From Gammaproteobacteria bacterium (GTDB taxonomy: Bacteria; Pseudomonadota; Gammaproteobacteria; GCA-002705445; GCA-002716945), in assembly GCA_029246085.1 (NCBI GenBank), contig JAQWOB010000013.1, positions 1 to 50,278 of the forward strand: 50,278 nucleotides of DNA. The letters run 5' to 3'. The notes below the pieces were generated by a model that made no database searches, was not told where the DNA came from, and saw nothing but the letters and a program-made list of their open reading frames with translations. The translations under genes were made by a program, and so were the position numbers. Position 1 is the first letter of the stretch. Each line of letters starts with the position of its first letter. Of the stretch, positions 795-29,110 are shown in pieces.

Positions 795-1886
795 ATGGCA
801 GAAGTAAAAACAGAAAAAAAACAAATGAGAGCGCCAATTGAAACGGGTGCACCAGATGGTTTCCAATACATGCATCCAACGATGCGTAAAAATTTTGGTC
901 AGTGGAAATGGCATGATCACCCTAGACCTGGCGTATTAAGGCATGCTGCTAAAAGTGGTGATGAGATTTGGACAGTGAGAGCTGGAACTCAGAGAATTTT
1001 AGATGTATTCACTTTACGCACACTATGCGATATTGGTGATAAGTTTGCCGATGGATTTGTAAGATTTACAATTAGAAGTAATATTGAGTATATGCTCAAA
1101 GACGCTTCAAGAGTAGAGCCATTAATAGAAGCCCTTGAGAAAGAAGGCTTTGTTGTTGGAGGCACTAAAAATAGTGTTGCAATGATCTCGCATACACAAG
1201 GGTGGTTACATTGTGACATCCCTGGAACTGATGCATCTGGTGTAGTGAAAGCTATGATGGATGAACTAATAGATGAATTTAAAAATAATGATATGCCTAA
1301 TAGAGTGCATATGACTACATCTTGTTGCCAAATTAATTGTGGCGGACAAGGTGATATTGCAATTAATATACAGCACACTAAACCACCAAAAATTAACCAT
1401 GACTTAGTATCAAATGTATGCGAAAGACCATCGGTTGTAGCAAGGTGCCCTGTAGCTGCTATTAGACCAGCAATGGTAAATGGACAAGCTTCGTTGGAAG
1501 TGGATGAAAAAAAATGTATCTGTTGTGGTGCTTGTTTCCCTCCATGTCCACCAATGCAAATCAATGATCCGGAACATAGTAAGTTAGCAATTTGGGTTGG
1601 TGGTAATCACTCAAATGCTCGTAGCAAACCAACTTTCCAAAAATTAGTGGCAGCAGGAATACCTAATAATCCGCCAAGATGGCCAGAAGCTACTGCAATT
1701 GTTAAAAGAATTCTTTCAAAGTATAAAGAAGACGCAAAGGATTGGGAACGTATCAACGACTGGATTGAAAGGATAGGTTGGCCAAGATTTTTTGAATTAA
1801 CAGAACTTCCATTTACTAAGTATCATATTGATAACTGGCGTGGTGGCAGAAAAACTCTAAACTCTTCTACATACATTAGATTTTAA
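795..1886 (+). CDS. dsrB: Reverse-type dissimilatory sulfite reductase beta subunit DsrB
   Basis: HTQGWLHCDIPGTDASG, TTSCCQINCGGQGDIAI and CICCGACFPPCPP motifs; operon context. Confidence 0.97.
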   Translation: MAEVKTEKKQMRAPIETGAPDGFQYMHPTMRKNFGQWKWHDHPRPGVLRHAAKSGDEIWTVRAGTQRILDVFTLRTLCDIGDKFADGFVRFTIRSNIEYMLKDASRVEPLIEALEKEGFVVGGTKNSVAMISHTQGWLHCDIPGTDASGVVKAMMDELIDEFKNNDMPNRVHMTTSCCQINCGGQGDIAINIQHTKPPKINHDLVSNVCERPSVVARCPVAAIRPAMVNGQASLEVDEKKCICCGACFPPCPPMQINDPEHSKLAIWVGGNHSNARSKPTFQKLVAAGIPNNPPRWPEATAIVKRILSKYKEDAKDWERINDWIERIGWPRFFELTELPFTKYHIDNWRGGRKTLNSSTYIRF

Positions 1887-3357: not shown

Positions 3358-4095
3358 ATGTCATTTGTGACCATATTCTATGGAATATCATTCTATGTGG
3401 CTACTTTAATTCTCTTTATAGGTTTGGGATATAGAATTTATGAATATTCTATAATTCCATCACCTTTAAAAATTCCAACTCCCCCAGCACCTAAGACTAA
3501 AAGTGGTGTTGCTATTAGATTATTCCGTGAAGTTGTATTTTTTGAAAGTTTATTTTCAGCAACTAAATGGACATGGTTATTTGGCTGGCTTTTCCATTTT
3601 GCATTGTTATTGGCTGCTCTAAGACATCTAAGATATTTCACTGATCCGGTGTGGTTTTGGGTTTCATGGGAAATTGTTCAAGCCGCTGGTCATTATGCTG
3701 GGTACATGATGGTCTTTGGATTAATTGGATTATTAGCTAGAAGAATATTCGTAGATAGAGTGCGATATATCTCTAATCCATCAGATTATTTAATGTTAAT
3801 ACTTATAATTGCTATAGCAGTTACAGGACTATTAATGAAATGGTTCCATACAGATATTTATGCTGTAAAAATGTTTTTCATTGGGCTTATGTATTTCCAA
3901 TGGTCGGAACTACCCAGTGATTTTATATTACTATTACACCTTTCTCTTGTATTGCTTTTGATGATAATATTCCCTTATAGTAAATTATTACATGCGCCAG
4001 GACTATTTTTTAGTCCCACCAGAAATCAAACTGATAACGCGCGTGATCAAAGGCATATATCAGATTGGGCAAAAAAATTAGAGTCTAAAAAGTAG
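3358..4095 (+). CDS. dsrM: DsrM, membrane cytochrome b subunit
   Basis: Multi-TM NarI-like protein between dsrC and dsrK; RBS AAGGAGAG upstream. Confidence 0.93.
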   Translation: MSFVTIFYGISFYVATLILFIGLGYRIYEYSIIPSPLKIPTPPAPKTKSGVAIRLFREVVFFESLFSATKWTWLFGWLFHFALLLAALRHLRYFTDPVWFWVSWEIVQAAGHYAGYMMVFGLIGLLARRIFVDRVRYISNPSDYLMLILIIAIAVTGLLMKWFHTDIYAVKMFFIGLMYFQWSELPSDFILLLHLSLVLLLMIIFPYSKLLHAPGLFFSPTRNQTDNARDQRHISDWAKKLESKK

Positions 4096-27270: not shown

Positions 27271-27332
27271 TTCCTTCTCCTCTTTAGTGTTTTACCAGAT
27301 CGGTATTGGCCACAAGCTGAAGATCAACTGCC

Positions 27333-27367
27333 AAAAAAAAACCACCATGCGCTAATGCATTGGTGGT
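27333..27367 (-). terminator. Intrinsic terminator/attenuator upstream of the 134-aa ORF
   Basis: Minus strand ACCACCAATGCATTAGCGCATGGTGGT hairpin followed by T9. Confidence 0.82.
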
Positions 27368-27422
27368 AACCCGATCGCTTTAGCTATTTAACGCCGGCAA
27401 GCTGAAAAATTCAAAACGGCGT
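27333..27422 (-). ncRNA. Candidate short structured RNA / riboswitch-like leader
   Basis: Predicted about 90-nt transcript from a strong promoter to a terminator; 5' hairpin ACGCCG...CGGCGT. Confidence 0.6.
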
Positions 27423-27428
27423 AATTTC

Positions 27429-27457
27429 ATTACAGCAAATATGGGAGTGAGTGTCAA
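27429..27457 (-). promoter_or_regulatory. Sigma70-type promoter (TTGACA-17-TGTAAT)
   Basis: Minus-strand TTGACA (27457-27452), 17-bp spacer, TGTAAT (27434-27429); overlaps the stop of the upstream gene. Confidence 0.75.
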
Positions 27458-28336: not shown

Positions 28337-29110
28337 ATGGCTAATAAAAGTGAAAGACATAGATTGAGCTTAATAATGGCAACTTTAGGCCCATCAACTG
28401 ATGATGAAAAAGAATTACTTACAATGATTACAGCTGGTATAGCTAGACAATGGACGGATGGAGTTGATATAGCTAGAGTTGTTTATAATGATGGTGAAGA
28501 AACTATTATTAACAGAGTGAATATATTTAGAGATCAGTGTTCTAAAAGAAATTTTGATACAAGCGTTTATTTAGATACTGATGATACTGATACAGAAAAT
28601 TTTGAGAAGTATCTTTCCTTGGCTAAAGTTATTAATCCTAAATATCTATCTATTCCCAAAACATTTGGACTAGACATGATAAGCGAGGCAAAGAAACATT
28701 TTAAAAATGAAATGCTTGTTGGAGTTAGAGTTAAAGAAAATGATGATATATCTGATATAGAAAGTTACTTTGAGATAGCAGATTTTGTAATGGTAGAATT
28801 AGATTCAAAAAAAATAGTAGATGAAAAGATAGTTGAGAGAGCTAAGCAGAAAAATTGTGAACCAATTTATTTGGCAAAAATGCCAACATTAATGAAAGGC
28901 CAGGTTCAGTCAAGAGATGAGAATTTCGAGATAGGGCACACACTGGAAGATGGTTTTGATATTGTTGCGCTTTATGAAGAAACATCTCATGGGCCATATG
29001 CAGCAAGATCAGTTAAGTGCATAGATGAAATAGCTGTCGAATCAGAAAAACTTCGTGTTAACCCATTTGGAGATTTATTAGATAGGTTTTTAGGTTTTTT
29101 TAAAAAATAA
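28337..29110 (+). CDS. Divergent, truncated pyruvate-kinase-like protein
   Basis: MATLGPSTDDEKELLTMITAG...DIARVVYNDGEE and KMPTLMKGQVQSRDENFEIGHTLEDGFDIVALYEETSHGPYAARSVKCIDEIAVESEK resemble pyruvate kinase blocks. Confidence 0.65.
   Translation: MANKSERHRLSLIMATLGPSTDDEKELLTMITAGIARQWTDGVDIARVVYNDGEETIINRVNIFRDQCSKRNFDTSVYLDTDDTDTENFEKYLSLAKVINPKYLSIPKTFGLDMISEAKKHFKNEMLVGVRVKENDDISDIESYFEIADFVMVELDSKKIVDEKIVERAKQKNCEPIYLAKMPTLMKGQVQSRDENFEIGHTLEDGFDIVALYEETSHGPYAARSVKCIDEIAVESEKLRVNPFGDLLDRFLGFFKK

Follow-up and report, generated by a model that had tools for sequence, protein, structure and literature searches.

A probable tandem SAM-II/SAM-V double switch upstream of an orphan gene in an uncultured marine gammaproteobacterium

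The window, which is the whole 50,278-nucleotide stretch of DNA analysed here, stems from an uncultured marine gammaproteobacterium and carries a double RNA element on the minus strand, upstream of an open reading frame of 134 amino acids. Along the minus strand, the SAM-II-like half is followed by a terminator, the SAM-V-like half, the Shine–Dalgarno (SD) sequence and the start codon. Transcription is predicted to start at about 27422, the first base of the 5′ hairpin. The −35 box of the promoter extends into the stop codon of the preceding gene, a member of the fatty-acid-hydroxylase family. The following features are discussed below.

27429..27457, minus strand: predicted sigma-70-type promoter TTGACA-17-TGTAAT (−35 TTGACA 27457-27452, 17-nt spacer, TGTAAT 27434-27429), read from the sequence, arrangement kept in relatives
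27377..27422, minus strand: probable SAM-II (SAM_alpha) aptamer, from the Rfam SAM_alpha match and conservation in relatives
27422-27417/27396-27391, minus strand: SAM-II P1, hairpin ACGCCG/CGGCGU, with L1 UUUUGA at 27416-27411
27402-27397 and 27384-27377, minus strand: SAM-II P2, 5′ strand GCUUGC and 3′ strand GCUAAAGC
27333..27367, minus strand: predicted intrinsic terminator ACCACCAAUGC...GCAUGGUGGU with U9 tract, from folding and a compensatory C-G to U-A change in 7/18 relatives
27351..27384, minus strand: putative antiterminator, GCUAAAGC (27384-27377) with GCAUUAGC (27358-27351) in the terminator loop, from complementarity and nascent-RNA folding
27298..27376, minus strand: possible long-range helix, GAUCGG (27376-27371) with CCGAUC (27303-27298), from pairing, covariation and pair probability
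27277..27334, minus strand: probable SAM-V aptamer, from the Rfam SAM_V match in the window and the scores of relatives
27334-27330/27310-27306, minus strand: SAM-V P1, hairpin UUGGC/GCCAA, with third strand GUUGA at 27328-27324
27316-27311 and 27289-27282, minus strand: SAM-V P2, 5′ strand CUUGUG and 3′ strand CACUAAAG
27305-27293, minus strand: SAM-V P3 hairpin (UACC-GAUCU-GGUA), then AAA linker
27281-27277, minus strand: SD AGGAG, directly 3′ of SAM-V P2
26866..27270, minus strand: orphan protein gene, 134 aa, predicted ferredoxin-like alpha/beta fold, from linkage in relatives, dN/dS and models

An earlier sequence-only reading had described the promoter, both hairpins, the terminator, the SD sequence and the ORF, and direct reading of the minus strand finds all of them with the letters it gave. 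The promoter, hairpins and terminator in its interval (27290-27457) are real, but the interval misses 27289-27277, CACUAAAGAGGAG, which comprises the 3′ strand of the second (SAM-V) pseudoknot and the SD sequence and closes the pseudoknot around the SD. The nine shared nucleotides UUCAGCUUG are indeed present in both loops; they correspond to the 5′ strand of P2 with its flank, which SAM-II and SAM-V have in common because the two aptamers are structural siblings. The two CGAUC segments, which had been described as related, do not represent repeated aptamer parts and are complementary to each other.

At gathering thresholds, Rfam returns no match in the whole 50-kb window. The element looks unknown because both matches are sub-threshold, so that an ordinary scan misses them. 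With permissive thresholds and at full model length, the search yields SAM_alpha at 27430-27359 with 20.5 bits (gathering score of 36 bits not reached) and SAM_V at 27342-27274 with 20.3 bits (gathering score of 41 bits not reached), each the best match of its class in the whole 0.96-Mb genome. Alone, these matches are weak, with E values of 0.05 and 1.6, respectively, for a search in 1 kb. Both best genome-wide matches fall into one leader on the same strand, with SAM-V directly 3′ of SAM-II; a simple length estimate puts the chance of this co-location at about 5e-5. The leader had not been matched to any known riboswitch class, and we now regard both halves as sub-threshold members of known SAM classes.

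All hallmarks of SAM-II are present in the 5′ half, namely P1, L1 with UUUGA and the P2 pseudoknot (CUUGC/GCUAAAG). It shares with Rfam RF00521 (SAM_alpha) the H-type pseudoknot core ...GCUUGC...UAAA..GCUAAAG, P1 and the terminator. It differs in its shorter loops, in its score and in the GC-rich P2a helix typical of SAM-II, of which no clear counterpart is found in the 5′ half. The SAM_alpha cut-off is strict for this lineage, because loci of the class located before methionine genes also score 23-35 bits.

The 3′ half has the same anatomy as the metY SAM-V crystal structure (PMC6061858). Shared with Rfam RF01826 (SAM-V) are P1, the third strand UUGA, P2 (UUGUG/CACUAAA), the P3 stem-loop, the AAA linker and an SD sequence 3′ of P2; CACUAAAG-AGGAG stands 6 nt before the AUG, the SD placement expected for translational control. 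The window differs from this family in its score and at two residues. At U8, a residue contacting SAM, the window and some of its relatives have G, the other relatives U; at A18 the window has C, which is also the letter of the SAM-II consensus. The counterparts of the contact residues U9, U10, U19, U20, U47, A48 and A50 of the crystal structure (PMC6061858) are invariant in 18/18 genomes in the alignment to the Rfam consensus. In relatives, the SAM_V score ranges from 29.1 to 40.1 bits and reaches 37.8-40.1 bits in L019, L021 and L022, against the cut-off of 41 bits.

A covariance model of the 154-nt region was searched in 25 genomes of the order, representing six genera. The element is found in 19 of these genomes and in four of the six genera, with E values from 1e-50 to 1e-21. 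These relatives are uncultured marine Gammaproteobacteria with genomes of about 1 Mb, among them the single cells AG-349-E17 and AG-390-N19 as well as Tara and other metagenome-assembled genomes. We aligned 18 complete copies, from the window and 17 further genomes, and left out the copy in L041, which is cut by the contig end. Throughout these 18 copies, the tandem order of SAM-II, terminator and SAM-V before one gene is maintained, and the orphan gene family follows the element wherever the contig continues, with a broken frame in L031. The mean column identity of the element is 85%, and the promoter is kept too.

Standard pairs account for 96.5% in the 18 copies; shuffles give 93.9 ± 0.4, and slid partners no more than 49%. 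Twenty alignment cells are changed on both sides, versus 7.4 ± 2.1 in shuffles and 0-2 with partners slid. Compensatory changes are observed in four helices (SAM-II P1, one row; terminator stem, 7; SAM-V P1, 7; long-range helix, 5), where the counts are sequences rather than independent events, and the changes track genera, so that the events are few. The pairs of the SAM-II pseudoknot are kept to 100%, and P1 is kept with compensatory change; the pseudoknot strands are nearly invariant and thus show no covariation either way. The homologous loci, to which the sequence-only reading had pointed for a covariation check, retain the stems and loops. When the whole leader is folded with RNAfold, P1 and the pseudoknots are disrupted, and the z-score of the fold is only −1.7; minimum-free-energy folding cannot represent pseudoknots and is not counted as evidence for aptamer structure. 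A simple promoter/terminator scan listed neither the promoter nor the terminator, the former because the scan rules require the −10 hexamer to have A as its second base. We consider conservation the better evidence.

The P2 3′ strand GCUAAAGC can form 7 of 8 pairs with GCAUUAGC in the window, and 5-8 contiguous Watson–Crick pairs are possible in 18/18 lineage members. At class level, 15/16 loci show this complementarity with 4-8 pairs, while the remaining locus is without a U tract. In nascent-chain folding, GCUAAAGC:GCAUUAGC pairs at transcript lengths of 72-80 nt and reaches −18.4 kcal/mol at 76-80 nt. Once its 3′ arm is made, the terminator is more stable, with −23.5 kcal/mol. The computed expression platform is terminator-based and mutually exclusive with SAM-II P2. 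The complementarity in the lineage and in the class loci supports a putative terminator/antiterminator OFF switch. The earlier suggestion of a tandem leader with regulated read-through is supported.

From the riboswitch families to which the two halves belong, we infer SAM as the ligand and the following direction of switching. At low SAM, GCUAAAGC would pair with GCAUUAGC as antiterminator and RNA polymerase would read through, with the SAM-V P2a/SD segment open to ribosomes. At high SAM, the SAM-II P2 pseudoknot would hold GCUAAAGC, so that the antiterminator would be lost and the terminator could form, releasing an RNA of about 90 nt. In transcripts that escape termination at high SAM, the SAM-V pseudoknot P2/P2a would close over the SD and silence translation. 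Release of an RNA upon termination is also described for the S. meliloti metZ SAM-II switch, which yields the sRNA RZ (PMC9373788). An sRNA with a decoy copy, as proposed earlier, is not needed here, though termination would free the short RNA.

The match in sequence and structure, the conservation, the covariation, the gene linkage and the complementarity form the basis on which we read the leader as a tandem SAM-II/SAM-V double switch, transcriptional and then translational, before an orphan gene. We assign this reading a probability of about 0.88. What counts against it are the two sub-threshold scores, each weak alone, the exchanges at U8 and A18, the missing P2a helix of SAM-II and the target, which is no recognisable methionine gene. 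Two aptamers that fold as SAM-II and SAM-V but sense another ligand, e.g. SAH, MTA or another sulfonium, would fit a target that is no known SAM or methionine gene as well as the U8 to G exchange in the window, and ligand-swapped (spermidine-sensing) variants of SAM-I have been published (PMC10853860). We nevertheless judge a different ligand to be improbable, as the residues of the U:A.U triple that select SAM over SAH (U9, U20, A48) are invariant together with U47 and A50 in 18/18 genomes, and this core recurs in the SAM-II-like elements by which metZ, metE and metN are controlled in the class.

It is less credible still that the 5′ half mainly produces a stable sRNA of about 90 nt acting elsewhere, with read-through being incidental. 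The strict maintenance of the SAM-II pseudoknot and antiterminator strands argues against such a function, and so does the second aptamer, which together with its SD has stayed in register with a protein-coding gene throughout the lineage, even though promoter and strong terminator delimit about 90 nt and RZ provides a SAM-II-derived precedent (PMC9373788). Sub-threshold matches in the window and the modest fold z-score are what could be expected of chance hairpins and a terminator with accidental weak Rfam matches. We give this explanation practically no weight: conservation down to E 1e-50 in 19/25 genomes and covariation far above the shuffled and slid controls mean that the homologous loci have already refuted it.

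The tandem double switch as an architecture is already known. A bi-mechanism SAM-II/SAM-V tandem is established for bhmT of Ca. P. ubique (PMC2704228, PMC5069961, PMC9481103). In 2016, Ca. Pelagibacter was described as the only sequenced organism to have the double SAM switch (PMC5069961), and a 2022 survey counts 149 SAM-II/SAM-V tandems (PMC9481103). The bhmT leader shares with the present one a SAM-II aptamer with intrinsic terminator, followed by SAM-V overlapping the SD, and the same logic (PMC2704228, PMC9481103, PMC11508383). Likened by published description, it differs in its host, which is SAR11 rather than a marine gammaproteobacterial order, and in its target, which is bhmT rather than an orphan family; the SAM-II half here is of the kind that also precedes metZ, metE and metN in Gammaproteobacteria. 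New are the lineage, the target family, the possible long-range helix and sequences below the Rfam thresholds. The double SAM switch is kept across an unrelated marine lineage with genomes of about 1 Mb.

GAUCGG is located just 3′ of the SAM-II core, and CCGAUC lies in the loop of SAM-V P3. Six pairs between them are possible in 18/18 copies, with one pair being G-C in 12, A-U in 5 and G-U in 1, and the pair probability is 0.97-0.99 in the folded read-through RNA. This evidence for a possible long-range helix between the 3′ flank of SAM-II and the P3 loop of SAM-V is suggestive only, because P3 itself constrains the same letters. We infer a role in linking the two halves. What makes the helix interesting is a finding on the Pelagibacter tandem, whose linker and SAM-V portion abolish the SAM response of SAM-II in the full-length RNA, a loss whose cause its authors find unclear (PMC11508383). 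Communication between the aptamers of the Pelagibacter RNA is an open question (PMC11508383), and the element described here provides a natural alignment for examining it.

The orphan family, with members of 120-134 aa, evolves fast, down to about 20% identity, while the leader is 85% identical. For estimable pairs, dN/dS is 0.03-0.13, which indicates purifying selection. The ORF had been called Cys-rich, which does not hold for the family: 7 Cys are found here and 3-7 in relatives. Searches of Pfam, NCBIfam and PDB sequences with the ORF gave nothing useful and no family, and PHROGs returned only weak matches (best E 0.0029), to families without a known function. No relatives were found in viral contigs or phages, and a class-wide search found the ORF in this lineage only, apart from one chance-level match. 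Modelled with AlphaFold (pLDDT 76 and 63), two members show a two-helix, mostly antiparallel alpha/beta fold. The best PDB fold match of both is the phage SAM lyase 6zm9 (E 0.039 and 3.7e-4). Phage SAM lyase is a PII-like trimer. We rejected a SAM lyase function: the sequence profile of eight phage SAM lyases does not match that of the family (hhalign probability 0.1), and the invariant residues of T3 SAMase, E59, E68 and the QDC motif, are absent, which leaves the fold match alone. Moreover, making a SAM-destroying enzyme at low SAM would be illogical. Because sequence profiles disagree and catalytic residues are missing, only a predicted ferredoxin/PII-like fold can be claimed.

Pfam searches of the 25 genomes of the lineage find PF01053 enzymes (MetY-like) in 25/25, PF01717 (MetE) in 0/25 and PF02574 (MetH/BHMT/MmuM) in 3/25, one of these a partial match at a contig end. 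With MetY-like enzymes in all genomes, MetE absent and PF02574 nearly so, the step from homocysteine to methionine is unaccounted for. One may reasonably suspect the orphan gene of acting in some step of methionine/SAM supply; by linking this family of unknown function to SAM supply, the probable double switch makes its function directly testable. Going further, the orphan could be a new protein of SAM/methionine homeostasis and, at the same time, GAUCGG:CCGAUC could let the SAM-V half switch off or reset SAM-II in read-through RNAs. We regard this combined proposal as speculative and rather unlikely; if true, it would explain the SAM-unresponsive SAM-II domain in the full-length Pelagibacter tandem.

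Elsewhere in the window, on the plus strand (28337-29110), a 257-aa protein matches the pyruvate kinase barrel below threshold (PF00224, 24.6/30 bits) and is possibly a truncated pyruvate-kinase-like paralogue.

SAM-II-like elements occur in 97/369 sampled genomes of the class. Elsewhere in the Gammaproteobacteria, single elements with a terminator carrying GCUUUAGC precede metZ (O-succinylhomoserine sulfhydrylase type), metE and metN, the genes being named by inspection of the translated proteins. Annotation pipelines likely miss these elements (L045-L060), since most of them score in the 23-35-bit range mentioned above, under the SAM_alpha cut-off. By description, they may be of the same SAM-II type as the beta-proteobacterial metXZ element of Leyn et al. 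2014 (PMC4239095), a pseudoknot with terminator-antiterminator upstream of metX/metZ for which no SAM-V half is described. None of the viral contigs searched contains the exact SAM-II core pattern.

SAM-V is rare in the class, with matches to the Rfam model in 3/369 sampled genomes, one of them from this lineage; this strict search missed the window itself. A phylum-wide SAM-V search gave zero matches and missed the controls too, and is uninformative on SAR11. A literature search yielded no paper on SAM-V in marine phages. A lone SAM-V with 38.8 bits is located in the same genus (L044, G013:C7, reverse strand 1507-1575), immediately upstream of a 429-aa protein that has no Pfam match. Another, with 34.3 bits, comes from a different gammaproteobacterial family (L072 1501-1570, G161:C7) and precedes a 193-aa protein that apparently carries a Tat-type signal peptide. 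Two IMG/VR contigs classed as viral carry SAM-V-like elements before small genes, L093 at 912-983 (minus strand, 28.8 bits) and L094 at 3577-3646 (plus strand, 37.1 bits), and the latter contig also contains a terminase-like ORF.
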